Shown in pieces: positions 2,650 through 60,125 of a stretch of DNA of 64,000 nt. Every line of letters starts with the position of its first letter. The first letter of the stretch is position 1. The translations under genes were made by a program, and so were the position numbers. Source of the stretch: Bryoerythrophyllum caledonicum (lineage: Eukaryota > Streptophyta > Bryopsida > Pottiales > Pottiaceae); NCBI GenBank assembly GCA_963971425.1, contig OZ020517.1:18504904-18568903 (forward strand), in the 5' to 3' direction. Below the pieces are notes generated by a model. It was not told the DNA's origin, did not search any database, and was given only the letters and a program-made list of their open reading frames with translations.

Positions 2650-3985
2650 TCATAGTCTATCTATCTCTGCCGGGAGTCGTCTCAGCCATTCCATGGCCAC
2701 AGTTCGGTTGCTCATGTCCACCATGAGAGCGCCCACGTCGAGGAGCACGCGCGCTCGCTGCGTCACGACGCTCGTTTCGAGAATCTGCTCGCTGGTTACG
2801 CAGGACGGGAAGCTGGAGTAACCGGTGTTCTCCTCTTGTAGCAGCTTCGAGATCACCGCCCCGTCAGTGCCCTGGAGCTCCGGAAGGTCACGTTGCGTGA
2901 TTGACGAAGGGAGAAGCAGGCTCGTGTCCTTGGCTTCTCTTCGCTGCAGCTTCCGGAGGGGCAGGTTCTCGTCTCCACCTCGGAGTATGTCATCCGCGAT
3001 TCTCCCACAAAACGCGCCACAGGGTGATGCATCCAGGATGCGGATATGCGGGAATGCGAATGGGCCCTCGTCGGCTGCATTGAACTCCATACGCTGCAGT
3101 GCGCTGCAGTGACGTTGTGCGCTGCGGAGAACACTCTGGGACACTTTCCACCGTAAGTGTGCACCGTCTAGGTCCATCTGTTCACCGACTGTGTACACGA
3201 CCTGGTACTTGACGTGAAGGAGCAGATCCGACTCGTCGCGTGCGTTCCGCTCGACCATGTCGTGGAGGTTCCGCATGTCGAGGTTTGCGCCAAGTTGACA
3301 AAGCTCCAGCGTCTTCAAGATGGTGCTGAGCCTGTGCTCGGGACGCATCACCACAACACCATGTCTTGAGATGCATTCCTGGTAGACTTCTTGCATGGCG
3401 TGCGCACCGCGCTCGTCAATGCTTATGTCGCGCCGGAATGGGAAGGTGTACACTCTCTGGTTGAGGAGTCTCCCGAGCTTGGAAACCAGCGCGTCAAAGT
3501 TCATGCGGAACCAGGACCCGAGAACTGTGAGGCGAGCGAAACGCTTGCCGTCAGGAATGTGGGCGCAAAGAGCCGGCACTATCACGGTCGTCTTCCCCTC
3601 GCCCATGTTCAACTGCCGGAAAAAATTCTCACATGAAGACAACATCTTCTCCGCGACGTCGACTTGGATGGCTCGCATGAAATAATCTCCCTCGAGCTCC
3701 AGCATGAGCCACTCGGGGCGCGCCTCAGGATACCAATTCGCGTGGCCACGGTTGGCTAGCACCTTCTGCAGGGCCATGTCTTTGTTGTACAGCAGCCGCA
3801 TGCACCGCTCTGCTTGCTGCTCCAAAGTCCAGATCACAGCTAGAGCACCAAGCGCCACTCGCACGTTGGTGAGATTCTTGTCCACTGTGTCGTTCCTGAC
3901 GCATGCGAGTAGAACGGTAGGAACTCGCCGCCATAGACCAGCAGCTTCTAGCGCCCGTGATACATCGCATTCTCCACAAACGTGT
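2650..3985 (-). pseudogene. DUF3638-family large protein, central fragment
   Basis: An open minus-strand frame runs from about 3985 down to a stop at 2650. Family signatures visible in order are RPEWLMLELEGDYFMRAIQ, the glycine-rich QLNMGEGKTTVIVPAL segment near 3580-3615, the PFRRDISID region, an MRPEH motif and DESDLLLHVKYQVVYTVGEQ. These match the DUF3638 region of very large proteins often annotated as ubiquitinyl-hydrolase-like in fungi, oomycetes and plants; their biochemical role is poorly known. The MGEGKT loop resembles a SecA-like nucleotide-binding turn. The frame ends after a MSNRTVAMEWLRRLP stretch, where the family would continue. The stop lies within about 45 bases of the palindrome edge, so the 3' part was lost or separated there. 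Codon use is GC-rich and clearly coding. I call it a truncated gene. Confidence 0.75.
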
Positions 3986-5003
3986 GAAGCTCTCGGTTAT
4001 GGCGCCAACGTGCGAAAATCTTGTTGATGCCTTTGGTGGCAGAATCATACGTTATAGTGGACTCTACGCTGAAGGAAGCACTGGCTGGAGGAAGCATGGC
4101 ATTAGATAGCCAACATCTTACAGCATTCTTAATCAATTCCTCGATGTTCTGAGCTTGAATTTGGTGAAAAGTTTTTCTTTTCTTGAGTAGAAATCACGAC
4201 GTGACTCGTTGTCGCGAGGGACTCCCACCATGTTCTGGCATCCTGTCGCCAAATGAAACCAAGTTGTTCTTCACTACTCTTGTAACCATGTCCTTGTCAA
4301 ATTTAGTTTCGGCAGTATACTTATATTTATTGTGCCTCGGAGGGGTCACGTCAAACTTGAACTCGGGTTGCAGAAATAGCAACACAGTGCAGGATAGAAA
4401 ATTAAACACGTATTGTAGCGTCATCGACGAAGAGGTGTCCCAAAACCGACAGAAACAACGTGAATGTCTCACGATGGTCCCCAGCTTGTGTTGCCAGAAT
4501 GTAAAGATCGAGAAACATGTCATGAAGACTCTTATGCGCCAGCAAGCGCCATGTCGACACTCAAACTTGTCTTAGCAGCGCCACCAACACCGCCCAGTTT
4601 CTCGCGATTCAACAACAATCCACTCAAGAAACTCTTATCTTCAGCAATGGCCAATCTCCTCCATTCATGCCCAGCTTTCGCACAAACGTATGAAGCTGAA
4701 ATTTCGCGAGGTCATCCCGCGACAATTTCATGCTTGTTGACAGAAGTTGATGCTTGTCGACGAGTGTGGGGGATTATCAAGTAGTGCTTCCGGGTGCAAG
4801 GATCTGAGACGTTGCTTTCTTCAAGCAAAACTCCGTTCCGCAATCCTATCAAGCTGCCAATGTTCTGGTTCCTCGAGACGGAGAACCCAGGATGCTTGTG
4901 AAAGCAGATTTACCACTCTCGGTTGAAACAACGACAACGTCTGCAGACGATGGCCAGCTCGCAAGGAGCCAAATGCCTTGAACGCTGCTGAGTTAGTATG
5001 CAA
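3948..5003 (-). pseudogene. Decayed 5' part of the DUF3638 gene
   Basis: This is the upstream side of the fragment at 2650-3985, on the same strand but broken among frames. One frame (3948-4136) encodes SFSVESTITYDSATKGINKI and must change frame near 3985 to join the downstream part. A second piece (4821-5003) encodes a SLRAGHRLQTLSLFQPRVVN segment, which resembles the SLR-G-R-QWLN stretch of the N-terminal half of DUF3638 proteins. Between them (4194-4790) the reading is interrupted by several stops. Unrecognised introns could explain some breaks, but stops and frame changes together with the lost 3' end favour a pseudogene. Confidence 0.5.
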
Positions 5004-11735: not shown

Positions 11736-13439
11736 GAGTGCAATAAGGTATTTTCTTCCTTGCATTGACATGGTCAACGTACTTTGACTCAACATGATGG
11801 CATATTTCCACCACACATTGCATAAATTCTATGGATCTATGTACTACCTTGTGTAAGGTCATAGCATGCCAAAAATCACAAGTAATGGAGGTTTTAAGAT
11901 AAGAAAATGTGGACTTGCAATGACTAGGAGTATAGAAAGTAACCATTTACACAGGAAACTCATTATGTAATTTGAATAAAAAATTTGTTGGAAAATCCAA
12001 ACAATGGATAAAATCATTATGCCTTCTTTTGTTGGGAGAAAAAAAAGTACAAGCTCATGGAACAAACGTTTTACCAACCCTCAGTGATTAGAAATGAAGA
12101 GTGTAATGAGCATCGAGATATGATTGTGCATATTTTGTGTTTATGATAAATTTACATGTGACATGTGAATGGATTGCTTGGATCTCCCTATTTACCCCCG
12201 GTCGAACGTTGCACCAAGCCTCAGCCTTGAGTGGGTCCATTTTTCTGGCCTTTTAACTTTTGGGGCTCTAGGTGCTTTTTTGGATTTTTTTTTGCCAAAA
12301 TTAGGAACTACAGCCCCAAATTACCCTCGATGCCCCCCCTATGATCATACAGGCCCCCCCCAACATAAAAGTAGGGGCCGGCTTTGTCCCTACCCTCCCC
12401 CATTCTTCCAAGCCTGAAGCTCGACAGGGGTATTTAAGCAAATCGGGATTGCTGTACAATACTACCATGTTCATATATGGAAAATTACATATTACGCACT
12501 ACTCATGATGGCTACTCATGACTCAACAGCATTCATGAAATGCATGTGCTGTGTTGTACTCACAACATTCTGTAGGATTCCAAAAGAATTTTTGTCCAGT
12601 ATTGCTGTGAATCACTGTGAGGCATGACTTGACAGACTTTTCTTTATTCCGATTTACAAAACTTGAAGGGAAAGCAAGAGGACCTCAACCAGTATTGAAT
12701 CTCCCACAAATCTTCATCAAAATCATCAAATGAATTGAATCTTTGATCTTCTCAAGAACCACAAATGCAAAAACCTATGGTTTATAAATTTGAAGAGATG
12801 GGTTGCTATGACCTCCATGTTCCACCGATCATTACAACAACTCTTCATTGTAATGAACTCGAAGGACATAACATAAATGAGAGGATACATCTCGATCCAA
12901 AGTATAGTTATGGCTCCTACTCTAGTTGTTTATCTTATCATAACTTAAAAATTAGCTAACAAAAGAGAACGGCAGTTTGGATGAATTAATCGTAAAATTG
13001 TTATTTCTACTTTATTCAACTTCTAACTTAGTTCTTTTTGTTTCCTGTGTGGATCACGGTTTACCATATCAGAAAAATGCTTGCCGAATCAAGTGGGAAA
13101 ATATTGAATGAAATTGCCGAAACTAGAGAGACTAAATATTTACTGATTTTGTCACACTGGACGACATGAAAGGGAAGTGGGGCTTGGAAAAGTCTCCATT
13201 TGAGGTTGCGCATGCATGGAGGCTTTGGTCTAGAATCCCAAGGTTTTGTGGTTCAAGCCCCCATGATCGTCAAATGTGCTAAATACAATAATATGTGATT
13301 TCTTGCCAAAATTTTATTTTATTTTTATGTCTGATGCAAAATGGCTTTTTCTCACTTCAATTAATTATTCGGCGTGGAGGTGCAAAACTAGAGGTTCACC
13401 TACAATAGTCCCACGTGACAATAGTCTCTCAAACCCCTC
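11736..13439. other. Gene-free stretch
   Basis: AT-rich with a small GC-rich patch at 12300-12420 containing poly-C runs (ccccccct, gccccccccc). No credible coding region. A phrase at 13223-13266 (ctttggtctagaatcc ... ggttcaagccccc) looks faintly tRNA-like but does not make a cloverleaf. Confidence 0.55.
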
Positions 13440-14614: not shown

Positions 14615-17600
14615 ATGGATTACCAGGTGTTTCTTGTGCGGCCGCCCGGGGGCACGCGGGCGTCACGCGGAGGCGTAGGAGGAGGCTTGCGGCTCTTCCG
14701 CATCCTCGACCACAGGATCTCGGTGCTGCCTCTGGCGACTCCTACCGCCGCTCCCACCGAGTACAGGTTGGAACATATCTCCAAGATCATGGCCGCCGAT
14801 GACGACCCGACCGAGCTCAGGATCGAGATTGTGGACACCAGCAAGTCAGGCTTCGCGCACGAGACGGTCCGCTTCTGCTGCGAAGCCCGGACCTCGCTTC
14901 TCACCGCGCTCCTCAACCGCGTGGATGACATGAATGGCATCGGTATGTGTGTGTACTGCCGCTTGTTGTATCTCATCTTTTGAGGTTTGATCGTGGCAAG
15001 GCTTCTTTCAATCTGGTCATATCCTGTTGCATCAGCGCATATTTTGAGGTTTGATCATGGCAATTCTTCATTCTGCACCTGCAGGGATTGATTATGCGGC
15101 GACTAAACACAGTATCCAGCGAGGAGGCCTGGTCGACGCTATTCTTCGTGTGCGAAGCGCTTCGATAGTGAAAATGGTCAATTTAGGTCATAAGGTGATC
15201 GAGCTCAATGCTGCAGAATATGTGTTTCATGAAAGGATGACATGGACATGGAGCTGACCGTGTCTTCATGTCTCAGGTAAAGGCGTCGAAGAAGGTGAAT
15301 TTTGAGGATATTGTCAAGCTTGAGATTCTCAGTGACGATGAGCAGGTTGTGCTGGTTTCTCTTAGATCCCGAACCATGCGGCTGGTGGTTAAGGATTCCG
15401 TGGCTTTCGTTCGCGCCATTCAGAGGAACATGAAGGTATGTGGTTTTCTTACCTAAAAGAGTTCATGGAACTTTTGGATTTAAGCATTTGGATTAGAAGG
15501 ACTACATTTGAATTTGCGGATTCTGCTTTGGACTTTCCTTCATGGCGATGTATGTGGTAAAAGCAGTGTGTGATGCACAGCAGTGAACTTTGAATGCAGG
15601 CATATTTGAAGTGGGACATGGATATTGAGAAAGTAAAGACGTCTGTGATTGTTGACTATTTTGCCACTCACTTCAAGAAAGTTGTAAGTACTTTGAGTAT
15701 CTTTTAGGATTTTGAAGCTTGATTAAGTGAACGAGCTCAAAGTCTTCCATATTACGGTGCTGTTAATGAGTATTTTTATGGCAATATTATCATAATGGAA
15801 CTCTCAACATGTAGTAGGTATTTTTCTCGAGAATTGTCTTTATGGGGACCCTTTTGTTTTGTGTTGATTTGTGATTGCAGCGAGAGTATCCTGTTCTTTA
15901 TGAGTTTCAAGCAGTGAAGCAATCTAAGCTGCAAGATTATGAAGGGCCGCGCACCTTGTCTATCACGAAGCATCTTCTTATTGAAAGTTCTTTTGATGAC
16001 ATTATCAATATTCACAGGTTATTACCTATCCTACCTGGAGCTGACCCAGCACTATTTAATCTGAATAGAAAGCATAGTTCAAATGCTCCTCTCTAACTCT
16101 CCTTTGGAATTTGGTTTGTGTATGCAGTTTAGAGGATTTACGTGGCCTCGTAGCTAGTGAGAAAAATGATCAAGAGGTTATCATCGAATTTTCATCATGG
16201 CGAGATTGTAGCTTCCTGCTTAGAGACCGTGAGGACTTCATTGCTAGCGTGGCAGACGTGATGGGCATGGAAAAGGGATCCGCATTCAGTGTTCGCTTCG
16301 AGTCATTACATTCTCACACGTTCCCAGAGCAACAAAATTCGCTGTACCAGGTCACAAAATTCCCAACTGGATCGGTTTTTGTCAAATGCTAATGGGATTT
16401 TTTTCTGCTATTCGCATGTTTGGATATTGATTGAAACAGTCTAATTATCGAAACTGATACTAGAGTTCGATTTCAGGCCGAGTGTGAGTCATTTTATTTG
16501 AATCGTTTCATGGCGGCGTACAATTCTACCCGAGAAGCGTGGGCCCTACATGCGCCTTTGAGGGAGTATGCTGCAAATATACTGGTACGACTTGTAAATC
16601 TGACTATTTTTTCCATTTTGTAGAATTTACTCCGTCTTATGACAAACTATGCGAAATTGTCGTGTAAAACTTTCGCAAAATTTTGGTTTTGGCTTCAATG
16701 TACTGAGAGTGTCTCATGCGTTGTCACGCAGGTTGGGGAGTCACAATGTACTGCCCTGAAAACTCTTCATGCTGTTGTTGAGACGTTGAAGGAATGCATC
16801 GGTAAGGGATCTAGCTTATTTTTCCTTAGAATGTGACGAGTTGTGCATGATGTACCTACAATGCAAAGTGTCCAGTATATTGTGATTGTTTGATATTCCT
16901 GCAAAAAAATTATGGTTTAAGAAAGTAAGTCGCCTGAGTTTCTTCTATGTATGTCTGCCAGTGAAAGTAATTAAAACGTCTAGGTGCAGTTATGGAGCTG
17001 ATTTGACTTCACAAGGAGACTTTGGTGGTTCAATTTACAGACTTGTGCATGCGGATTTGCCTGGGCTATTGTTGGACTGTGGTGTTGATTAGAAAACTTA
17101 CACTTACTGTTGTAATGACATTATACAAAAAGAGACAGCTAAGATCAGTTGAGCTCGTGTACTGATGAGTTGACGTGTTATAATTCAGGGAAATCAAAGC
17201 CTGATACTGTACGAGCTACAACATGTTGCATGGTCATTGTGAGGCTTCTGGGATCTAAACCGTGTTTTGAAGCCATACGAACCTGGCCAGAGATTGGAAC
17301 AATTCTGTTTCAGGTATTTTCTTATATCCCTTCTAAAAATAGATTTCTTCGTTGTTTACTACCTGGTTGTGTTCAGGCAGGCTCATGTCTGATTTTTGTA
17401 CACACGATTACTATTTATTATCTTTTTTTGTACACCTTTTTGGGTACAAATTTACAGATTAATTAATCATTTGAACAGAGCTGATAATTTTGTCTGATCT
17501 CTTCACTGCAGTGCTTGCGTTCACAAAACAGCATACTTGCATATCATGCAACACTGGTCATACGATCTGCCATCAAACTTGTTGCCCAACCTGGAACGAT

Positions 17601-20600
17601 TGATGCTGGCATTGCATCAAAGGTGAGGTTCCAAATATACAATTCAGTTTTTGAGGGTAATATACAAGCTTTATAGTGAGATGTTTTGGTTCCGCTAAGA
17701 AACTATTTATGAAATTGCTTGACATGTACGAGTAGTGAAGTGTTTTATGTGACTTGTTTTGAAGATATTGTAATCGTACAGTTTCTCATGCGTTATTTGG
17801 CATATGCAGCAAGAATTTGCCAATAGATTGTCGGTGCTAAGTGCAGAGAATCTACCGCAGTTGGTAACATTGCTCCATACCCGCGCGCTTGCAAAGCCTA
17901 ATTCTCTTCAGGTTCTTTATTTCTAATGCTTCCTTGCTCTTTGTTTCTCAATCCTATCACTTTAATTATTCTTACTTAAGCTGATTACTTTTATGTTCAC
18001 AAGAACTACGAGCATTTAATAGAATGTTGATTTTGAATCGCTGACGGTTTTCCGAGCAGGTCACAGGTATTTTAGACATCTTAACGTACGCCCTCAGCTC
18101 CCCACCGGCAGATAATGAAGCGGGTCGTCTGTGGCTCCGAGTACATCCTTACCCAGTTTTTCCCACAGCAATCTTTGTTTCCAACTATTTCAGTAGAAAA
18201 TCTGCCAACTTTGAAAAATTTATGTTTGAAAATTCCAGAGATAAAAGCATATATATGACTATCCTCATGCAATGTCGATACCTTGTAGAGATTACTGTAG
18301 AAATATGTTAAGTGGTATGGATGATCCTCAAGGCCCGGTATTTTAAACTCATAAAAGAGAACAGAGCTGAGCATCGTTTTTGTGATCGCACTTGAATAAT
18401 ATTTTGAAGGTGGGGGAATAATAGAATCTTTGGCTGTAAGACCCTTAATTTGTTTCCATATATTGTTCAGGCATACGAGGCGTGTATAATGACTACTGGA
18501 GACGTTCTGTGTGGATTATTTAGGTCAACCAGCGACGTTGTTTTTACAAGGTAGAGAAACTTCAATTCTTTCATGTTACTTGAATCACATTCTTTCAGTC
18601 TTATTATTATGTCCATTCGAAGTGTTTGACAGCTGCTGTGACTCAAATTATCTGAATTGCGTTCTAGTTGTTGAACATTCTGTGGATCGCTTGGTCAGGC
18701 TCTCGATTCTTCTTCAAGCATTGCTCTCAACGATGCCACCAGTTGTGTGCAAACATCTCCAAGTAGGCCTTCTACAGCTCTTTTTCTGAGTTTTAATCTG
18801 CCTCATCTTTAGGAAATTTCTTTGCAAGGAATGAGTCGTGTCTTACCCATACGGAATCACTCTTACAGGTTCTTACGAAGCGGATGTCGTCTCCATTTTC
18901 TTTTTCATTAATAGTCCTTTGGAATTGGAAACATCCTGACTCTTTGACTTGAGTGTTCTGTACAGAATGTGTGCATTCGTCGTTGTGTGTTTCTATTGCA
19001 CTTGAGTACGGCAGTATTCTCTAAGAAGCCGCATCTCAGGTTGTTGAGCTGTAGTCAGATCTTTCTTCTGATGGAAGGAAACCCTGATGCGAAGAAGCTT
19101 CTGATGAATGTGTTACCCATGGTAAGTGTATTGTTTACAGTGCCTTAACATCCCTGAAAGCAAGCCTGTGCATGGATGTCCGATACTTGAAATGAAGTGG
19201 TAAACAATAATCTAATTTTATTTATCTTATTTATTTTTGCTAACGCTCGGTAAGAAATTCGGCGTACAGGGTGTGATGAACTTGTACGCCAATAAAGCGA
19301 GTGAGGTGAATGGCAAGGTAAACTTCTTATTTCAACATTTTACAAGACAAACATTAATTTTAGCACCAGATGCGCCAGACTTTCTCCCAGTTGGCTTGAG
19401 AATTATTTGACATTCGGTCTGAATTTGTAGAAGGAACCGACAGGTGATTTCTCTGCATGGAAAGACACCATGGAGCTGCTTCACATTGGAAGTGTTGAGA
19501 CGCCACTTCTTGTATGGAATGACATCAAGCGTTCGGAGTTGAAGAAGGTATAATTACTTTTAAACATTCATTGTGGTCACTTTGATGATGTGATCATGCA
19601 GGAATCAAGTAGTGATTGTTGTATCAACTACCTACTAGTCATTTTTCATTTGTCATTGACGTACCTGCAATCGAATCCTGCAATGTGAATATTTCATGCG
19701 TTGACGTTGCAGTTCCTTCGGAATGAAATGGAGGGTTATTATACTGCTTTAGAAACAAATAAGGATGTTTGGTACAACTCGGCAGATGTTCAGGTTGTCT
19801 ACTCCACTGCCAGTGAAGGCGGAGGTGAGTTCCAACCATATCTTCGATTCCATCTTGGCTTGCAAATGTTTTCCTATCAAACTGATTAAAATTCAGTTTA
19901 AGAAACTGAGGTACCTGAAATGGATTTGGTGACCTACAGGGTCTGTTGTTAGAGGCATTCATCTGGAGCTTCTCGTTGACCATCACCCTCCTGCGTATGA
20001 TATTTACAATTCGTTCTGGAAGGCAAGTTGATTACACAACACAAAGTTATTTTTATACCATTTCGATGGAGCATAAGTAGTAGATGTTCGAATCTATGTT
20101 TGCTGTGGGCTGACATCGTTTATATGACTTGTGAAACAGCTTAATGACCCACTACCATTATTTCAGTCAGTATACCAGGCCATGCTTCTGGGCTTCACTC
20201 CTTTGTTCGGCAACAACAATCTGCCTGAAATTGATCTACGTCTATCCGTGCATGTATTGACCTGGATCTACGAACGTCACACAGCTGATGTCTCTTCCTG
20301 CATGGAGACACTGAAAGTCATCGAGGTATTCTGCAATGCATCCTTCCTTCAATTTTCAAATAATCTCTAAGTTTGAGAGCGCATGTATTTTATGATCGAC
20401 AAGTCAATTTTTCTTGGCATATTTCATATTCTACGTCATTAAGATCACAGTTTTTTGGCTCACAGACAGTAGTGGGGATGCTGCGGGAAGTTATCGATAG
20501 CGAGCACGAGGTGTTTGTATTCAAACTGGTTATTTTTCTGCTCGCAACGCTGGAGAAAGGTAAAAGAGAGAATGTGATGCGGTTTACTCATGCAGGTGGA

Positions 20601-23600
20601 GCTGCTGTATTGGTATCTTTGATGGCTATATCTGCAGACAAGGTAACTCTCTTTCCAAGACCCCTGTCAAGAATTAAAATATCAGTCTCCAATAGTCTTC
20701 GCACTGATGCAGATATGCCTTTCGTATTTGTCGTCCAAGATTTCCTCTACTGCAGCAGAGCCATGAGATTAGCTGAGAAACTTGTCTTTAGGGCTTTAAC
20801 GGTTTGACTATTGCTTTGCAGGGTTGTGAGAACAAAATGAAATTCGAATGCAATGGCGGGACTAGCAAGGATGCCTTAGCGCAGGTTCCCTCTGGCATGG
20901 TCAATCATGTGGGCTCTGATGGAGTGTCAAGATTAGTGAGGATCCCATCCGGAATGGCACGGGAAATGATGGGAAAAGCTGTGCAAGATGGCAGCTTGGA
21001 AGCCAAAGATGGCATCAGATGGCAGGATAAAAAAGTTCCTCCCAAGATTCAGTTGGGTCTAGTGTTGGACCAGCTGGAAACTCTTTTGAGGTACTTCTAG
21101 AGATTTGATTTCAGTTTTTTGATACAATATTGTTGGCAAGGCTCTAAACAGGTCTGCAGATGTATATGAGTCGTTGATGGTGTGTTGTGGCAGAGTATCT
21201 GGTGACAGTAGCAGTAAACAGCGTTATCCACCATCGGCTGCATTGTTGGGTCTTTCCAAGGAAGAAACTCTTTATCACTTAGTGCAAGTTTTACTCCGAC
21301 TTAAATCACCCGAATTTGGCAGGTACCCAGTTTATTTGATTGTACACTATTTGATTCAATCTGAAGTAAGGCGTGCTTGCCTCAACTTATGTGTGGAGTG
21401 ACGGCGTATGTACAGAGAGATATTGGTGGAAATTGCATTGAGCACTTCATTTATATAAATGTAGGAGTCCTCGTATTTTCTCTCTTTGATATGCTTTTGA
21501 GCTCTCTTTGAGGCTCAGTTTTCCATCACTAAGAATGCACATCATGAGTCGACTGAGTGTGTTATCAATCTACTAATACGAACTGATTGCCAGGGTTTTA
21601 GAGATTCTCTTGATCATTGTCAAGTCAAACAAGAGTGCTATGCGACGGCTTTACTCTCTTGGGGCTTTTGAGATCCTTCTGTGGAAACTTCTTGCCGGGG
21701 ATCTCGTTAATCGGGAGAAAGAGATGCTCTGCAAATTCTTGTTGCTGTGTCATTTAAAGCAGGTACTGCGCTGCATTTCTGGTTCGTATCCGTGTTCATG
21801 AATTTAATGTCATGAATCATGTTTGCTGTTCCCTAACGCCGGGGATCAACTTCTTTCTTAAAATGAAATGCGTCTTTTAGGAATACGACCAAAACTCAGC
21901 GTAAAGACATCGAAAACATATTTGGCAATACACCATGAGTCTTGTGTACTGCTGCTGCTATTTTATTTCAACTTATGCTCTCTTTCTGTAATTTATCATA
22001 TTATTTCGGTAGCTGGTTGGAAATGCTGGTGAATAATCCCCGCTTGGTTAGCTTGGATGTAATGATTTGCTTGCAAACTTATTAATTGTCCCGTTTACCT
22101 TTCATGAATTCTAACATAAAGATATTTGTTTTCTACAGGATCAAGGATCAATGCTGAAGACTTCTGAAGATGATCAATCACTTTGCAAGAGTAGCGCACT
22201 CCGACTTTACTTACCTGAGGGGCTCGTTCTGAGGCTTTTGGCTGAGGTATCTCCACTACTCTCTTTCTACTTGCTTTTAGGGTTTAGGGTTCACTCTAAA
22301 CTTGATGGATAGTGATGAAAGTTTACCTTTGTTGGGTGCACAGGATAGGGACGCAAACATACTCTTTGCATCAATCTTAGACACTGAACAAGAGGCACCC
22401 GATGTTATTTGGAATGCGGACATGCGGAAACGTTTGCTGGAGTATCTCAGAGGTGAATTGGAGCCATATGTGAAAGCTCGCGCCAGCGATCCCATGGCAC
22501 CTTACGTGCACACTCCTCGTGCTCCATTACATTATCCTGAGTTGGCTGGTACGTTCATAGTAATATGCAATCAATGATATCTACTGACTCCTTTCGTATA
22601 TCTAACGTCCAACTGGAACTGGAACCTGGAAAATAATTACCTTGAGAGTTAACCTTGCAAAGATTGTAGGTATCATAGATTCCATTTATAGTTCTGGGAT
22701 TCCTGAATTCTATCATGTATCTTTCTCTTACTAAGCATCTTTCTTGTGTTGCAGACGTCGTGTTTTCTGCTCCATTCTATCTACAAAATTTTCTTGATAA
22801 GGAGCGCTTTCCTGACTTCCTTATCAGAGATCCTGATGGGTTCTTGCGCAGCCTCATGCTGGTAAGCGGACCTTTTCTAAATTATAGTAACGCATTGGTG
22901 TGAATATCAAGATTTGCAAATCACAGGGATTTGCATATGAAAGGAGGGCTCTCATACCGATTGTAATGTCTCTTTCAAAAGAATTCTTAGTTTTGACTTG
23001 AACATCTTTTGTTCTCTAGTCATCCCTCTTACGTGCAAATTGCTTTCCGAATTTTCCCCAGTTTCTGGATGCAATATTGACAGATTCTGTGATTTCTATA
23101 CTATCGGTGTAGGACCTTCGAAATTTGGTGAAAGCTGGTGATTCCACCTGGCGCAAGGAACTACATCGAATCCAGCTTTTCATAGAAGCCCTGGTTAGTA
23201 TCTCAATCCCTCAGCCCTTTATCTTCCTTCTGATAATGAATTGTCCAAGGCCACGAGTGAGTTCACCTTTATGCTCTTCTTCACTAGAAGTGTTTCAAAT
23301 AGTGCAGCCATGTTTGAAATCGAGGTTGGAACTCTCAAGTTTTCTTTTTCCGCTCGCAGGCACACATCGTTGTCCGGCACAAGCTCTCTCTGCCAAGCGA
23401 CACAGAAGATCTCCTCGTGACGATCTCATCGCTATCCCTGCAGACCTGCCTAGTTGAGAACGAGAGCGCTCCGCAAGTCTGTATAGACATTTTACGCTAT
23501 GCAGTCCAAGTGCTTCGCAAGGTGGTAGCCGCGAGTACCATAACTGAAAATCTCTCCCTGACATCACTAAACTTCTCACTAGACATTCTTTCACTCGGCA

Positions 23601-26236
23601 CTCAATGGAGCGCCGGCAACAACCACCTTGACTCTGCAACCGCAGGGTCCCTGTCTGTGCTAGAACTCATATCTTCCAACCCGGTGGGCAGGAAGCATCT
23701 TTGGGAAGACCGGCGGTGGCAGAACGGCATGAAGTGGGCTCTGAGCGCTGCTGTCAGCGACGATCCCAGCCCTGTATCATACACGGCATTGAGCTCTCTG
23801 AAGCCCTTTGCAGCAGACTCAAGTTACACCCGGCGGTTCATTGACGAAGGCTTCCATCTCTCGTTGCTGCTGCTTGTACTTTCATCGCCAGATTCGAAAT
23901 CTACAAAATCAGCGCTCCCTATTTCGGCTGCAGATGTGCTTGGCTCTTTTGTGCGAGCAGAAGAAACCCAGCCTAGCTCACTTTCTAATCTCATACCCAG
24001 GTTCCTCCTGTCCTGCTTAAAACAGGGTGAGGATCTAGGAAAGTTCATTTCCATGGCAGGGTCAGAGATTCGGAACCCGACCATGGTGTGGACTCGTGAA
24101 ATGCGTGCCGAGTTTCGTGAGAGGGCGCTGGAGCGCAAGGATTCCGAGGAGGAACTGCAATGGCTGCAGAACTTCACCTACGGTGTTCTCCAAACCGAGT
24201 TTCTCATTGGTGGAGTTTTCGTGACCCATCTTGCATCTGGGAAGTGGGAGGGAGCTGACCTTCCAGATGACACCAAGTTTCTGGACCTCATGATGGAGTA
24301 TCTTGAGACGAACCGAAACGTTGTTAGTCCAACTGAGGTTGAGAACGGATACGAAGACAAGCACGTGATCGTTTCTGAAGGCGGGCAAGATGAGCTTGAA
24401 AAGTTCGTTCTCGTGTTAATTGCTCTGAAGGAGTGCTTGACATACGCAGCGACGTCACATGCAAGGACTGATTTGAGAAAAGGAGTCGACTTGCAAACGC
24501 TTCTAGACGTGGCGTCGATGGAGCATTGCGCACCCAAAGTCTGGACCGAAGTCATTCTGATTTTCAAGGTGTTGGCCCGGGAGGAGACGACGCAGACCTT
24601 CATTCTGGAGTCAAATCTATTCGGGCTGGCCGGGATCCACCTCTGGGATGCCGTGACAGAGGACAAAGGCGAAGCAGCCCTGGTCGCCACTCTTGATTTG
24701 CTACATGTCTTGAGTGGGAATATCAAATCTGATGTGGAGGCAACGAACTGCTTCGCCAGCAGCGGAGTACTCTTCCCCTTGCTATGCATGTTCTGCGACG
24801 TCGATCTACCGAGCTTGCGAACCGGGATCATGGAGACCGAGAGAATATCCCCTCCTCAGAGGCTTATGGCAGCGTGCATACTTGGACAGCTTCTGTTGCG
24901 ATGTTCAAGCGGGGTCACTTCCAATTCCACAGAAAAAATCCACCGGGGAACGTCAATAGATCTAGAGGATCTCATGAACATGCTTGAGCCGGGCTACACC
25001 GGGACAAAGCCCCTTGTATTCCGCACCTTGGCTTCTTTACTGCCGCTGGAGTTCCTGTCCATACTAGCGCACAACCCTTCACAAGCCTGTGAGGTGTATA
25101 ATGCGACAGTGTACTTGCCAAGGCTGGTGTGGGACGATGAGACTCGCCGCTCTGTGAAGCAGCTGCTCACAGAGGAGGCCATCAAGCTGCAGGCATTCGT
25201 GAAGAACCAGGTGGTTGCAGGGCTTGGCTCATGGGCTATCGACCTGGAGAAGCCAGCATTTACTCGCTGGGTGCTTGCCACTGTACGACACGGGGAGAAA
25301 AGGCCGGTATATAAGAGTACAAAAGGAGACGCGCAGTATGTGCCTGAGCTTTACTTGGGCGGGTTCTTCCTGGATCAGTTCCTGAGAATACCCGAGTTTT
25401 TCTTCGGCAAGGCGCTTGAGCAGCGGTTCCTGCGCGAGGTGAAGAAGGCGATTGTGTTGGGCTCATACGCGGAGGATCCCGATGCTCTGAGGAGGGTGAT
25501 ACTCTCCCTCCTGTTGCTCTTCAAGGGGCGACCTTATTTGCTCTCTGGCCGCTCCTACATCGACATCTTCCTCGCGGTGAGCCGCTACATATCCTCTGAA
25601 GCATGCATGCTCGCCCAACCAGTGATGCTTCTGACCCACGCCATCGCCAACCACAAAGACATCGTCGACATCATCGTCTCGGAGGACTTGATCCACTCCT
25701 TGGTGAAGTTTCTGGACATGGATGTCCCTGCAGCGGACGCTGGGTTTGCAGGCAGTGACCCGCGGCTGTGCAGCCTCATGCTGCTGCTGAGACTCATCAG
25801 GCTGAGCCCCAGAACTGTCGAGATTACCACAGCTGTGAGCGTTGTGCAGAAGCTGGCAGACACAGTGCTTGACATGGAAGGCAACAACGAAGTGTCAAAG
25901 ACGGCGTTGGAGTGCCTGGCGTTAATGTGCAATGATAAGAAAAAGGGCAAGGAGATCATCCGGTTGTTGGAGAGTCTTGCACCTGCTGAGACGAAGAGGT
26001 TCTGGGACATCCCGGTGGAGAACATATGGGACGACGCGGCTGATTTTGAGACTCTGCAGCATTTTCTTCAGCATCGGTATCCGTGCTCGTGGTGGACCTC
26101 GGGTGAATCGCCAGAGAATGCTGCACCATTCAATTTGAAGGAGGATAAAAATGGCCCGAATGAGAACCACCAGACTTTCAATACCACTGTGTCTCGGAAA
26201 TGGGATCCTCAATTATCACGCGACCACTTGAGCTGA
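14615..26236 (+). CDS. RME-8/GRV2-like (DNAJC13 family) endosomal protein, no J domain
   Basis: Family members (DNAJC13/RME-8, plant GRV2/KAM2) act on endosome membranes in sorting with clathrin, Hsc70 and retromer. I read 29 exons that join in frame: 14615-14942, 15085-15176, 15277-15435, 15600-15683, 15881-16017, 16128-16350, 16477-16584, 16732-16801, 17189-17313, 17512-17622, 17810-17911, 18060-18140, 18471-18550, 18699-18762, 18966-19121, 19270-19317, 19431-19547, 19713-19824, 19940-20022, 20140-20325, 20466-20642, 20822-21090, 21152-21322, 21594-21762, 22139-22246, 22344-22548, 22755-22861, 23113-23193 and 23360-26236. Product is ~2209 aa (human ~2243, GRV2 ~2550). All introns are GT-AG except intron 19 (AAG|GCAAGT). 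IWN-type repeats: LLVWNDIKRSELKK (19.5 kb), DVIWNADMRKRLLEYL (22.4 kb), MVWTREMRAEFRER (24.1 kb), RLVWDDETRRSVKQLL (25.1 kb). HYPEL (22.5 kb) and AMRRLYSLGAF also align with the family. No HPD or J-domain helices occur between YLQNF (22.8 kb) and the third IWN. Exon 29 is 2877 nt while the others are 48-328. Exon 2 and exon 12 donors are the least certain. Confidence 0.85.
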
Positions 26237-27084: not shown

Positions 27085-27155
27085 TGCACCGGCCGGGAAT
27101 CGAACCCGGGTCTGTACCGTGGCAGGGTACTATTCTACCACTAGACCACCGGTGC
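27085..27155 (-). tRNA. tRNA-Gly (anticodon GCC)
   Basis: The minus strand reads GCACCGGTGGTCTAGTGGTA at the 5' end, an anticodon loop of CTGCCAC, the T-arm GGGTTCGATTCCC and the 3' end CCGGTGC plus discriminator A. The acceptor stem GCACCGG/CCGGTGC pairs perfectly over 7 bp. A Pol III stop (TTTT on the minus strand, at about 27075) follows within about 12 bases. It lies 10 bases downstream of tRNA-Asp, so the two may be co-transcribed. Confidence 0.95.
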
Positions 27156-27165
27156 GTGAGTGTGA

Positions 27166-27237
27166 CGCCGCTGCCGGGGATCGAACCCGGGTCACCCGCG
27201 TGACAGGCGGGAATGCTCACCACTATACTACAACGAC
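27166..27237 (-). tRNA. tRNA-Asp (anticodon GTC)
   Basis: The minus strand begins GTCGTTGTAGTATAGTGGTG, has the anticodon loop CTGTCAC, the T-arm GGGTTCGATCCCC and the 3' acceptor strand CAGCGGC with discriminator G. The seven acceptor pairs include two G-U pairs and are otherwise Watson-Crick, as in other plant tRNA-Asp genes. Upstream member of the Asp-Gly pair. Confidence 0.95.
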
Positions 27238-43214: not shown

Positions 43215-44274
43215 TCAAATTTTAATGGAATATGGTCTGAATATGTGGGGAGGGGAGGCAGTGGGGTGAGGAGGCAGTGGGGTGAGGCAATTTTGTGTTG
43301 TGTTGGCATATCTAAGTTTTGGCCATTTTTTGTTGTTGTCTACTCGGATTAGGGAGGGTGTAGGCGAGGCTATTTTTGTATATAATTTATGTATGTTCAA
43401 ATTGTTTGTTATAGACTCGGTGAGTGTGGCAAGTTGTTCCGTGGTGCCAATGTTACTCTTTGGTGGTGTATGCATAGTATTTGTATGGTGGATGGCTCTA
43501 GTCTTTGTTTATTTCTTAGTTCAGGTGGTAACGTGGGTCTTTGTATGGTACTGAATCTGCTTGAAATAATGCAATGATGTGAGAATCCGGGAATGGGCCT
43601 GAATGTGGGTTAAAGTTTTGGAATGAGTTATTGTCTAGTGTGATGATAAGAGTGGAAGAATATTTTGGATTGTTTTTGGCCACAAGTCTAGCCCAATGTA
43701 TTGCTTGTTGTGTTTCTTCTATATTGTGGGATTGAGCAATACCATTTCCAATCCATTTGTAGTCAAAGGCGTTTAGTAGTGAATCGAAGCTTTTGACTGT
43801 TTCAAAAGGTGAGTAAAACCTAGTGAGTTGGATGGAGCACATTGTGACGGGGGACAAAAAGTACAAGTGTTGGATGTTGAAGGATGAGAATAATGAATCT
43901 AGCATGGGCGTGGGTAATGTGTATTGTGCGAGTTTAAGAGGGTCATTTTTGGGGATGCAGTATTTATATCTTTGGTATAGCCAGACTATTTCCGTTTCAA
44001 ATGGTTGTGTTATTGGCTCTATGTTTGTTGGAGTTTGTAATTTGTTGTCATATTGGTTCCATAGCCATTGGAGTCTAGTGATGGAGATGGATATTAGATG
44101 TCTCCCATTATCTTCATACATGTGTGCGTGATCATCAGTAATTCTAATTGTATTGAAATCAAATCTATGGAGTGGAGTGGAGGTGACTTTGGAGAAAAAC
44201 TCCGTGCTGCACCTGAATGTCACCGTGGGCACTGGCAAGCAATATGGGTTCGTCAAGAAGAGCCTCATGATCAA
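43215..44274 (-). pseudogene. Unrecognised ORF, possibly retroelement-encoded
   Basis: A 252-codon minus-strand ORF (43516-44274) overlaps in position with a further frame at 43215-43475, and the two together may be one broken gene. Visible segments include FYSPFETVKSFDSLLNAFDY, KWIGNGIAQ and EETQQAIHWARLVAKNN, then TLIITLDNNSFQN. The FYSPF...KW...A-WA order reminds me of PCIF1-like methyltransferase-fold domains found in some plant and protist retroelement proteins. The expected NPPF catalytic motif is absent, so this is a weak lead. The sense strand is rich in C/A codons and the complement in G/T. Probably a decayed mobile-element gene. Confidence 0.35.
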
Positions 44275-55905: not shown

Positions 55906-57254
55906 GTCCCTCAAAACACCATCACATACACAGCGTCAACAATACCATGCATCAGGGGATGTCACGTCAGACACGCATAAGTTCTTTGAGACGTCTGCAA
56001 TGACACCCTCAGTGCCGACGACCATGGGTCGGCAATGTATTGGAGGACGCGATCATGTCCATCGCCACGTCCTCTAGGGCATGGCGATGTTCAACGAAAT
56101 CAGCATCAAAATCTAGGTAGCGTTGGCGTAGACGTCGAGCAGGACATCTCCACGTCAACTCGGGACGTCTTAAAAAACACAGCCATGTTACCAATGACGT
56201 CCCCGCAAACACGAATCTGAAAAAAAAACCACGCAAATATCTGCTGACGTGGCACGCCACGTCACTCTTTCCCGGGTCCACATCAGAGGCCACGTGGGTC
56301 CACGTCACATGCTACGTCATATGCCACGTCACCAATGGAGCGGATGAATTTCCCGGCCATGTGGCACTGCCCGTCATCCTGCCGCTTAGGTGTCGTCTAC
56401 GTGGCGCCCAGTTGGCACCATTTCCAGCCTCCCAAAATCTCCGAAAATCGTCCCTGTCGCAGGGATGTCCTCGCATTTTTGGTGATGTCCCCACGTGTTA
56501 CAGCGTGTTACACGCGTTGGTACGTCAGAGGGATGTAAATTCGGATGTCTACATGTCTCCTGGGACATGATTCAGGACGTGACAAAAAACACGGGTTTCT
56601 TATAGTGAAAGGACGGGGCGGGGATAGGGATGGGGACGGGGACAGGGGACGGGGGACGGGGGGGACGATGGATTGGAGGGAAAGGGCTAGGGGACCGGGA
56701 GGTGGGGACTGAACACAAAAAAATGTTGTGTCCGAAGGACAATGGTAGCACTCTAGTCTATACCTATAAAAGAAATCAGGATGAAGGACGCGTCGAATGG
56801 GTGAATGCGTGGATGGATGAACGCGTTGAGCTTGGATGAAAACAAAACGCGTCGAGAAAGAGCCTACTTCTGCTTCCAGGTCGTGGTGGCACCAACACGG
56901 AGCTGACGCACATGCGTCAGGAGCTGAGCCGGCGTCGCCGGCGCAGTTCCACGCGGCGGCGCCTGGATCAGCTGCTCCGACCCCGTTCACACCGTGCGGT
57001 GTCAAGGGGTTCGGGGTATTTGAAAGTCAGCCAGCGTACGCCAGGGAGCGCGCCGCTTGCATGTGCGACGGCGTACGCCGCGTTGAGTACAAAAAAAAAC
57101 CTCAAACCCCATCACATCGTGTGTTCACACTGTGCTAGAGTTTGATGTTTTTTGTAAAATAAATTTCGTATAAGTATAGAGGTTCAGCAGGGTAGACTCT
57201 CCCTTTTCTTGGAATTTTGTGGCATATTTCTTCTCATTTTCAATTGAGGTGGCT

Positions 57255-58553
57255 ATGGAGGATCCAATAATTATTTTTTTTGCTTTCATGGTGGTTTTTG
57301 TGGCGTTGTCAACACCTCCTAGAAGGCGGCAGAGGAATTATTTGGAAATTATGGAGACATCAGTTGGAGCACGATATATGCCACTTATTATTGGGTTTTC
57401 TTGGGCGTGCCGTTTTGGAGACAGGATGTGGTGGGTGGAGCCACAGCAATATATTCATTATGATATTGTGGAAGGAGATGTTTGGCACACGTCGCCCGGT
57501 ATGTTGGATAGAAAATATTGGCAAGCATATAGAATGGGTTTTTTGGCATTTAATATGTTGGTGGATGAATTGACACCATTTTTGCAATCAAGGGCCATTC
57601 AATTTGTAAGAGATCCTATTTCTATCCGTAAACAAATTGCATTAGTGATTTATAGATTGGCCCATGGGATTAGTTGTGACACTATGAGCAATTTACATGG
57701 GGTTGGCGCATCAACCATTAGAAAGTATACTTCTCTTGTTTGTGCGGTTTTGAGTAGTACGGATGGACTTTATGGTAGGTATATACATGCCCCAACTAGT
57801 CATAGGCTCCAAGGGATTATTGAAAAATTTAGAGATGTAACGGGATTGCCAAATATATGTGGTGCAATAGATGGGACCCACATTCCGTTACGAGAAAAGC
57901 CTTCTAGATGTTATACGCCATATCCTTCAGATTTTTTTTGTAGAAAAAAATTTCATAGCATTAATGTGCAGTGCGTTTGCGACATGGACATGATATTCTG
58001 GAATGTTTGTGCTGGACAACCTGGCGGAGTACATGATGGAGGACAATTTCGTTGGTCATCTCTATATGGACAACTTCACACTAGACAAATTTTACGTGAT
58101 CCTTTGATTCATTTGGGCGGCCAAGAAATTAGACCATATCTTATAGGAGACTTGGCTTATCCAATCCGACCTTTTTTTATGAAGAATTTCAAACCGGCCA
58201 ATCCTATATTTCGTGATCAAATTCGTTTCGATTCTTCTATGAATTCCGGTAGAGTCGTAATAGAAAATGCATTTGCTGCTTTAAAGAATCGTTGGAGGAT
58301 TTTGAAGGCATTTGATATGAGTGTAGATAAATGTGCAATGGTTACTTTAGCATGTTGTGTTTTACACAACTTTTGTGAATTTCACAAGGAGCGAGTTCCA
58401 GTGCCTAGAGATCGAAGAATGCATAGGGATCCATTTGTAGGGAGATATCGTGGCCATATTCGTTTACCTGACAAAGGTGAAAGTAGCAAGAGAGCTGGAG
58501 AATTGATGAGAGAAGCTATATTTACAAATTGGGTATCTCGAAATCCTGAATAG
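57255..58553 (+). CDS. PIF/Harbinger transposase (DDE_Tnp_4)
   Basis: Intact 432-aa ORF from the first in-frame ATG. The N-terminal part has a helix-turn-helix-like segment (KQIALVIYRLAHGISCDTMS, NLHGVGASTIRKY) that probably binds DNA. The catalytic domain shows GAIDGTHIPL (first Asp), LIGDLAYPI (second Asp) and VVIENAFAALKNRWRIL (Glu), the DDE triad, then ACCVLHNFCEF, a conserved C-terminal segment. These define the Harbinger transposase, which cuts and pastes DNA in the nucleus with its Myb-like partner. The length is normal for plant members and there are no internal stops. AT-rich codon use contrasts with nearby captured genes, and no intron is needed. Confidence 0.95.
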   Translation: MEDPIIIFFAFMVVFVALSTPPRRRQRNYLEIMETSVGARYMPLIIGFSWACRFGDRMWWVEPQQYIHYDIVEGDVWHTSPGMLDRKYWQAYRMGFLAFNMLVDELTPFLQSRAIQFVRDPISIRKQIALVIYRLAHGISCDTMSNLHGVGASTIRKYTSLVCAVLSSTDGLYGRYIHAPTSHRLQGIIEKFRDVTGLPNICGAIDGTHIPLREKPSRCYTPYPSDFFCRKKFHSINVQCVCDMDMIFWNVCAGQPGGVHDGGQFRWSSLYGQLHTRQILRDPLIHLGGQEIRPYLIGDLAYPIRPFFMKNFKPANPIFRDQIRFDSSMNSGRVVIENAFAALKNRWRILKAFDMSVDKCAMVTLACCVLHNFCEFHKERVPVPRDRRMHRDPFVGRYRGHIRLPDKGESSKRAGELMREAIFTNWVSRNPE

Positions 58554-58891
58554 TGATTTCTCAATATTGTAACACAGTGTTCTTTAATGTGATCTTGAAT
58601 ACTTTATTGGAGAAATGATTACAAGTTCTTTTGTTCTATGCTATGATATACTCCATTTTCATAATTTTATTTTACATTTAATGAGTTTCATGATATAAAT
58701 ATGGAACATGATATGTTAAAAATATATATTTTACAAAGCTTCAAGTTCATTTTTGATGGTTGACTACAAGGTTGTGGTGACATAAAATGGGGAATTTCAA
58801 AGAAAAGAAAATGCAATATAACTTTAAAGTTTATTGCAAATCATTAGAAATTAAGAATTTCCAATGTATACAAGCACATATAGTGCTACAT

Positions 58892-59704
58892 CTAAACCGA
58901 AGAATTTCCTCCACGGTTTTGCAATACAGATGCAAATAGTGTTGCCATGCGCTCTTGGGACGCCTGAGTTAGCTTGAACATCTCCAACTCCAAGGCCCTA
59001 TTCTCAGCGTGCAACTTGACAGCAGTCTCAACCTTCATCTCTTCAATCTTCAGTGTTGCCTCGCAAAAACGATCCAATGACGCGGCCATATCACCAGACA
59101 TCCTCCGACGCTTGTTACTTGCACCATGACAACCTTGTAGATTTGATGCCCTTGTTCGTGGCAAAATTGGCGCTGCGGGAGGTACATCTTGTGGGCTCAC
59201 CTCGTCATCATCTTCCAAATTCACCGGAGCCTTCTTTGTGCCATCAAGCTTCTCGCCATTGTCCATCGCTCCTGGTACTCCATTTGCTTTGGCGACTTCA
59301 CTGAAAATAGCATCAAGGTCATAAAAAAAAACAAACTTTGACTCATGATTCACTACCGATGTCATTTCCTTCTTCTCATTAGTGTAATGCTTCCGCATTT
59401 TTCCCCACTTGTCTCTAACATGCATCCAAGTCCTACCCCCCTCACTAGGAAAATGGGCAACTAGGCGGGTTTGAATAAGGGCCCAATCCTTCCTCTTGAA
59501 GTTGCAATCTCCGCGCGCCTCAATCTTCTCCCTGCACAAGTCAATCAAATATCTAGTAGCGGGAATTCCCCACTTTTTATCATCGGCGGACACCAAGGGA
59601 GGTAGGGGAGGAGGAAGGGGTGTGCTTGGAACACATGAGGGAGAAGAAGAAGGAGAAGGAGAAGAAGAAGGTTGTAGAGAAGGAGGGCCATTAGCCATAA
59701 CCAT
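58892..59704 (-). CDS. Harbinger-associated Myb/SANT-like (trihelix) protein
   Basis: Intact 270-aa ORF, convergent with the transposase. The start is the ATG at 59704 (MVMANGPPSLQPSS). A Ser/Pro-rich lead of about 45 residues is followed by a Myb/SANT-like domain: WGIPATRYLIDLCREKIE, FKRKDWALIQTRLVAHFP and RTWMHVRDKWGKMRKHYTNE, with three spaced Trp. A charged middle region and a C-terminal helical stretch (RALELEMFKLTQASQERMAT) could mediate dimerisation. In PIF/Harbinger elements such a protein binds the termini or escorts the transposase to the nucleus. Both genes being open suggests recent activity. Confidence 0.88.
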   Translation of the reverse strand: MVMANGPPSLQPSSSPSPSSSPSCVPSTPLPPPLPPLVSADDKKWGIPATRYLIDLCREKIEARGDCNFKRKDWALIQTRLVAHFPSEGGRTWMHVRDKWGKMRKHYTNEKKEMTSVVNHESKFVFFYDLDAIFSEVAKANGVPGAMDNGEKLDGTKKAPVNLEDDDEVSPQDVPPAAPILPRTRASNLQGCHGASNKRRRMSGDMAASLDRFCEATLKIEEMKVETAVKLHAENRALELEMFKLTQASQERMATLFASVLQNRGGNSSV

Positions 59705-60125
59705 TTGGCCTAAAAAACCCAACCCTTACTTCATGCTTGAAGAAAGAAAGTTGCAAGTTTGTAAGTTTGCAAGACTCCAAGGCAAGGAGAGAGAGGACTA
59801 CTACATCTCTTTGCCATCTTTAATAGTGCTTTTCTATGTGACTTGTGCATTTTACTTACTTTAATTTTGAGTGTCAGAGGGTTGATAAGGGTAAAACAAA
59901 AGTGGGCGGCTGAGGCTGAGAGAGGCGGCTCATTTTTTTTGTGCCTGCCTGACTTTGGCTGAGGTTGAGGCACACTCTCAACAGAAGTCTGTTCACCAGA
60001 ACAGACCCATCCATGTGAGCCGGCGTCGCCAGCCAAATCTGCGCATGTGCGTGGGCCTACGATTGATTTGTTCCAAACAGGCCAGCGCTTCCCTAAACGG
60101 TTGATTTGCCTCATGGAGTTTCCAG

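Follow-up and report, generated by a model that had tools for sequence, protein, structure and literature searches.

An intact RME-8/GRV2 paralogue without a J domain in the moss Bryoerythrophyllum caledonicum

Three described systems come closest to the gene considered here, which lies in a 64,000-nucleotide stretch of Bryoerythrophyllum caledonicum DNA (assembly GCA_963971425.1, contig OZ020517.1, positions 18,504,904 to 18,568,903 of the forward strand; this whole stretch is called the window) and encodes a relative of the RME-8 proteins from which the J domain is missing. The first is plant GRV2 (KAM2, GFS2), represented in the same genome by a canonical gene, with which the window gene has in common an RME-8_N region, four IWN repeats and a set of colinear matches, whereas the J domain with its HPD motif and the sequence KHSWRGKY in the first PH-like fold are found in canonical GRV2 but not in the window gene. 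The second is the group of HPD mutants of animal DNAJC13/RME-8 described in excerpts of PMC12404652, likewise RME-8 proteins that should not be able to work with Hsc70. Those mutants, however, carry laboratory residue changes, while in the moss the whole domain is absent from a natural, duplicated family. The third is Pam16/Tim16, the partner of Pam18 (PMC3806816, in excerpt). It is a small protein without an HPD motif and with an inhibitory role. Like the window protein, it is a relative without a working J domain, and it regulates a J protein; Pam16 retains the J-type fold, whereas the window protein lacks the J domain altogether and is much larger.

As for the animal proteins, the sections of PMC9642905 drawn on here report that the IWN3-IWN4 half of Caenorhabditis elegans RME-8 binds both the BAR domain of SNX-1 and the J domain, that J binding lowers the binding of SNX-1 by that half, and that its authors prefer a model in which one molecule of an oligomer inhibits another. 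When the HPD motif of human DNAJC13 is mutated or its C-terminus truncated, phosphatidylinositol 3-phosphate (PI(3)P) binding and endosomal location increase, with a dominant-negative effect on overexpression, and K17, W20 and Y24 of the first fold are each reported as required for PI(3)P binding (passages of PMC12404652). A salt-responsive gene named DNAJC13 is mentioned for Physcomitrium (PMC12615889, in excerpt). No report of a J-less RME-8 was found among the papers listed in searches of the open-licence PMC literature. RME-8 is described as a J protein, and because the broad RME-8 survey sought J proteins containing IWN repeats (as stated in part of PMC9642905), a J-less branch could escape surveys keyed to the J domain. 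Orthologues may already exist, unnamed, in other moss genomes. LEAFY, too, makes a moss likely: it matched at one locus of the genome, with D and C at the sites placed at 312 and 345 of Arabidopsis LEAFY, residues that mark type II. The LEAFY types are defined by sites 312, 345 and 387, and in Bryopsida mosses type II alone was found (passages of PMC6588583).

Gene model, paralogues and family membership

From its sequence, the window gene is very probably an intact RME-8/DNAJC13/GRV2 paralogue without the J domain and the linker that precedes it (about 90 residues), the loss having probably occurred by removal of an exon stretch at a phase-0 border before three J-less copies of the genome diverged. 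The gene model was assembled by hand through its splice sites (exon 24 ends at 21762) and consists of 29 exons that join in frame up to a single terminal stop. Its introns are of the GT-AG type in 27 cases and GC-AG in one, after exon 19; introns 26, 27 and 28 measure 206, 251 and 166 bp, and the G+C content is 0.50 in the coding sequence versus 0.37 in the introns. Two paralogues, at the loci C7 and C10, match the exon structure across nearly all exons. An earlier note on this DNA, made from the sequence alone, had described 29 exons joining in frame, junctions at 22861/23113 and 23193/23360, four IWN-type repeats and an intact gene. The rebuilt model agrees on the exons and reproduces both junctions, the repeats were located in order as LVWN, VIWN, MVWT and LVWD, and intactness is borne out by the open frame and by the selection on the coding sequence described below. 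The parts of the gene are as follows.

14615..26236, forward strand: J-less RME-8/GRV2-like gene, spliced model of 29 exons and 2,215 residues
14693..19290, forward strand: RME-8_N region, residues 27-653, interrupted by introns (PF19432, E 2e-42)
19509..19520, forward strand: IWN1-type motif LVWN, exon 17, residue 689
22404..22415, forward strand: IWN2-type motif VIWN, exon 26, residue 1147, within the segment most strongly conserved between the family and canonical GRV2
22755..22861, forward strand: exon 27, VFSAPFYLQNFLDKERFPDFLIRDPDGFLRSLML, the final segment ahead of the missing J domain, conserved in both paralogues
22862..23112, forward strand: intron 27, phase 0, 251 bp, the site where the J-coding stretch is missing
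23113..23193, forward strand: exon 28, DLRNLVKAGDST and WRKELHRIQLFIEAL, likely counterpart of the first post-J helix, canonical PWRLQLLLKAQCILF (hhalign, J cut from the canonical protein)
23360..26236, forward strand: exon 29, 958 residues, 63% identical to C7, coding for the C-terminal half, which contains IWN3 and IWN4 and has a short tail
24083..24094, forward strand: IWN3-type motif MVWT, residue 1499, in the hhalign block 1489-1549
25124..25135, forward strand: IWN4-type motif LVWD, residue 1846, with an acidic residue after W in all three J-less paralogues

Pfam models were run on the whole window and C7 proteins and, for C10, on the first 976 and last 946 residues, on either side of a middle part of 955. 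RME-8_N was found in the spliced window protein with 145.9 bits (cut-off 25.4), the further matches, to an importin-type repeat (E 0.012) and a plant ARM repeat (E 0.19), being below cut-off, and it was present in all three J-less proteins (E 2e-42, 5e-41 and 1.6e-44; 146, 141 and 153 bits), compared with 356 bits for the first 1,145 residues of the canonical protein. The four IWN motifs occur in order in each of the three, IWN3 of the window and C7 proteins having been identified by alignment, outside the motif search pattern. In a local hhalign comparison of the family with the canonical protein, in which the family profile represents two of the three paralogues (window and C7) and E-values refer to single pairwise comparisons without database calibration, six of 12 matches are colinear. 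The strongest, the IWN2 block, pairs residues 1011-1252 with canonical 1312-1535 (E 4.1e-15) and ends just ahead of the canonical J domain. The local run was used instead of a global one, which on whole proteins had given a single match at E 0.91.

Some results point the other way. Five of the six colinear matches are weak singly (E 0.0007-0.14), and the other six of the 12 are out of order, four of them pairing different IWN repeats. An exon-by-exon genome search with RME-8_N exceeded the cut-off in the canonical gene only, with C10 and C7 below it (E 0.1-0.65) and the window locus unlisted, so that the domain became visible only once the exons were joined. In the alignment to the canonical N-terminus, K17, W20 and Y24 of DNAJC13 have no match in the window protein: the K-x2-W-x3-Y spacing, seen in the canonical protein as KHSWRGKY, is absent from the window and C10 proteins, and C7 retains only a W. 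A figure legend marks RME-8 homologues without W20, so that this feature is not universal (PMC9642905, in excerpt). The YLT motif, which in the family belongs to a disordered C-terminus, is absent from the last 120 residues of all three J-less proteins, in a region that is unaligned and for which the canonical model, ending before the C-terminus, offers no counterpart. The window gene is, on its sequence, a J-less RME-8 paralogue, that is, a relative of the family lacking the J domain expected of its members.

The RME-8 relatives of the genome are one canonical J-containing GRV2/RME-8 (C4, 29.50 Mb) and three J-less genes (window, C7 and C10). The last exon of the window gene retrieved two further loci, C7 (63% over the exon) and C10 (42-49%, in four pieces), and no relative among viral contigs; a 401-residue query spanning the J slot gave 24 matches up to E 1, none of them outside the three J-less loci except weak ones to the canonical gene (E 0.0013 and 0.15). 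The C7 gene parallels the window gene exon by exon, except that window exons 16 and 17 correspond to one exon, and has 28 exons and 2,197 residues. The Pfam, segment dN/dS (nonsynonymous over synonymous change) and J-slot analyses used a C7 model of 29 exons and 2,181 residues with one false 48-bp intron; identity, overall dN/dS and the J-domain search were rerun on the 2,197-residue model with unchanged outcome. In C10 the gene comprises 31 exons and 2,877 residues, with exons 18 and 19 fused and three extra introns in the last-exon region, a hint that the window and C7 genes have lost introns there. Identity amounts to 67.7% of 2,147 aligned residues for window and C7, 50.0% of 2,193 for window and C10 and 49.8% of 2,174 for C7 and C10; to the canonical protein it is only 31-39% even in the best-matching stretches.

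The canonical gene, from C4:29.498 Mb onward, encodes RME-8_N and a J domain with HPD (44.5 bits, in a 213-residue piece); the protein used here is a concatenation of hand-trimmed exon cores. Its J region matched 11 sequences of solved structures at E <=1e-5, all of them J domains of other proteins. We take this gene to be of the plant GRV2 type, judging by Arabidopsis GRV2. Two observations on gene architecture may be added. A large exon (about 2.9 kb) lies in the 3' part of the window and C7 genes versus the 5' half of canonical GRV2. The final exon of C10 (L018/L027) encodes several hundred additional C-terminal residues, part of them repetitive, rich in Ser, Pro and Thr and built on a unit like PSSTQRSPATPPSVPAEPLQS; this tail is absent from the window and C7 copies and has no Pfam match up to E 1.

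Between window and C7 the Nei-Gojobori method gave a dN of 0.217 and a dS of 1.208 (2,147 codons), with a ratio of 0.18; therefore at least this pair is under purifying selection. All nine segments fall between 0.10 and 0.23, with the peak of 0.23 around the J slot (residues 1136-1290), dS exceeding 2 and approaching saturation in two of the nine, and the last segment comprising 29 codons. Synonymous change against C10 is saturated, so that dN/dS was restricted to the window/C7 pair, and the J-less copies look old. The idea of a pseudogene or an assembly error can be set aside as negligible in view of 29 open exons, three loci on three contigs that agree, and the window/C7 ratio.

Absence of the J domain and the manner of its loss

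The J domain, which marks class C J proteins and which in RME-8 proteins stands centrally, with its HPD, between the IWN2 and IWN3 repeats, was not found in the window protein. Pfam DnaJ gave no match up to E 1 in the spliced protein, nor in the scanned parts of the three J-less proteins, and the 81 PF00226 matches found among the best 140 candidates of the 437-Mb genome include one in the canonical gene but none in the window or at either of the two J-less paralogous loci. A hidden Markov model (HMM) was also built from eight J domains of the same genome and run on six-frame open stretches of at least 15 residues in the window and three other loci, where it recovered the canonical J domain at E 1.2e-9, the next best match being at E 1.8. 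With four spliced proteins, the three J-less ones at full length (--max), it matched the canonical one alone, and with the corrected C7 model again none of the three J-less proteins. The earlier note had read exons 27, 28 and the start of exon 29 as free of HPD and had proposed a PF00226 search, naming a J match in the translated locus as the result that would overturn its reading; no such match emerged from Pfam, PF00226 or the dedicated model. Its suggested search for a second copy with HPD led to the canonical gene on C4.

It could be argued that a J domain is hidden in an unrecognized exon or an alternative splice form, given that the introns were read from the sequence alone and that in intron 28 one frame is open across 55 codons. 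The earlier note had considered the 251- and 166-bp introns too short and stop-rich to conceal the domain; they indeed show no J signal, but 'stop-rich' is wrong for intron 28. Its open frame gave no signal with the J HMM, and the 166 bp, not being a multiple of 3, would shift the reading frame. With no J signal in any frame where the same tests detect the canonical domain, three paralogues that skip the slot alike, and no significant block shared by window introns 26-28 and the C7 and C10 introns (best E 0.1), such a hidden domain is highly improbable.

Equally improbable is a decayed J domain still occupying the slot. This candidate stemmed from a first multiple alignment, in which the slot helix coincided with J helices II-III, and was rejected since it failed the shuffle controls: the slot scores 13.7 against the canonical J domain, below the mean of 15.3 for shuffled J (standard deviation 2.6, 30 shuffles), slot windows rank 50-60 of 108, and the post-J helix fits better.

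The hhalign blocks bear on how the domain was lost. From the end of the IWN2 block to the IWN3 block there are 237 residues in the family versus 361 in the canonical protein, a difference of 124. Cuts of two lengths, 68 and 94 residues, were made in silico in the canonical region, shifted along it in steps of four residues. The best 94-residue cut, first of 98 positions, raised the global score from 88.8 to 115.5 (median 90.9); it takes out RPLDLSEEEACA through the J domain to ATLQGLQGPQ and aligns the exon 28 helix WRKELHRIQLFIEAL beside the canonical post-J helix PWRLQLLLKAQCILF. With 68 residues (104 positions), the top nine cuts all begin at residues 92-124 of the region and at least eight of them delete HPD fully or reach it, the tenth stopping just short. 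The canonical post-J intron is in phase 0, 11 residues before the tryptophan of the post-J helix; intron 27 of the window gene, also in phase 0, precedes its tryptophan by 12 residues, as it does in C7, while C10 has at this position six extra residues and no tryptophan. From position and phase, we infer that intron 27 corresponds to the canonical post-J intron. Because the cut of the J domain aligns best and a phase-0 intron lies near the canonical post-J intron, the domain was probably excised rather than eroded, before the three copies diverged, and the simplest reading appears to be that the exon stretch coding for J dropped out at this phase-0 border.

Surroundings of the gene

Genes for the transfer RNAs tRNA-Gly(gcc) and tRNA-Asp(gtc), 10 bp apart, lie on the reverse strand at 27085-27237, about 0.85 kb 3' of the gene. 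On its other side, an antisense open stretch at 13064-13252, about 1.4 kb upstream of the start codon, is 63% conserved upstream of the C7 copy (L016:3170-3349) at a similar distance and in a similar orientation, and is possibly a shared neighbour gene or leader. An open reading frame (ORF) at 43519-44274 (reverse strand) with a weak, sub-cut-off PCIF1_WW match may belong to a repeat, because a 59% identical stretch is also found upstream of the C7 paralogue (L016:7963-8349). Otherwise, the first 60 matches listed between the flanks of the window gene and those of the C7 and C10 loci are mostly short and partly dispersed. Further away are a long ORF with DUF3638, a domain of unknown function (2653-3996, reverse strand, E 1e-61), and, at 57180-59725, a transposase ORF (DDE_Tnp_4, Plant_tran, forward strand) beside a Myb/SANT-like ORF (reverse strand), a pairing like that of an autonomous PIF/Harbinger element.

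Possible roles beside the canonical protein

While the identity of the protein, the absence of its J domain, purifying selection and the existence of a canonical partner gene can be read in the DNA, we infer the location, partners and effect of the J-less protein. The best explanation, which we hold with moderate confidence, is that of an RME-8 scaffold uncoupled from Hsc70 that would modulate the J-bearing canonical protein, or compete with it, during endosomal sorting. This picture draws on the human HPD mutants, which become strongly endosomal and are dominant-negative on overexpression (PMC12404652, in excerpt), and on the lowering of SNX-1 binding by the worm J domain (PMC9642905, in excerpt). 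As a large scaffold, the protein would retain the IWN3-IWN4 half but would be unable to recruit or stimulate Hsc70. As there is no J domain to compete with SNX-1 for this half, it would stay in an open, partner-binding state. Since the first PH-like fold is altered, contact with the membrane may take another route, possibly mixed oligomers with the canonical protein. Some points count against this scaffold: the endosomal gain of the DNAJC13 HPD mutants depends on the PH-like domain (PMC12404652, in excerpt), the animal result may not transfer because K17, W20 and Y24 are unmatched, and the sorting-nexin step is taken, by analogy, from worm RME-8 rather than plant GRV2.

A possible but doubtful alternative is a dedicated trans-inhibitor, whose own IWN3-IWN4 half would, within a mixed oligomer, attach to the J domain that canonical GRV2 carries and so block Hsc70 activation. 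The J-like Pam16 restrains Pam18 in a comparable way. Worm IWN3-IWN4 binds J, with inhibition between molecules favoured, and the worm IWN4 residue required for J binding is acidic, E1962 (both from sections of PMC9642905); in the moss an acidic residue follows the W of IWN4 in all three J-less paralogues versus S in the canonical protein, a position that would correspond to E1962. The earlier note had suggested a scaffold or an inhibitor of a full-length paralogue, and the full-length paralogue with HPD that this idea requires does exist. However, the family has T after the W of IWN3 where the worm has D1657, and an identity as low as 31-39% to the canonical protein may preclude mixed oligomers. 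Rather unlikely is a neofunctionalized solenoid, namely copies working outside the RME-8 pathway and serving membranes or the cytoskeleton in some other way, independently of both Hsc70 and PI(3)P: besides the J domain, the PI(3)P-binding residues are gone, similarity is weak beyond the IWN2 block and the C10 copy bears its long Ser/Pro-rich tail, but four IWN repeats and RME-8_N are kept, and constraint (dN/dS 0.10-0.23) extends along the window/C7 pair.

A two-part RME-8 system may tentatively be imagined in the moss, in which a duplicated J-less clade would oligomerize with one J-bearing protein and govern the amount of Hsc70 activity at retromer and ESCRT (endosomal sorting complex required for transport) domains, the dominant-negative state of the laboratory DNAJC13 mutants thus serving as regular regulation. 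Should the J-less form prove real at the protein level, it would set the scaffold function of RME-8 apart from its Hsc70 function in a living plant, and knock-outs of single genes could then test what RME-8 gains from its J domain on endosomes.

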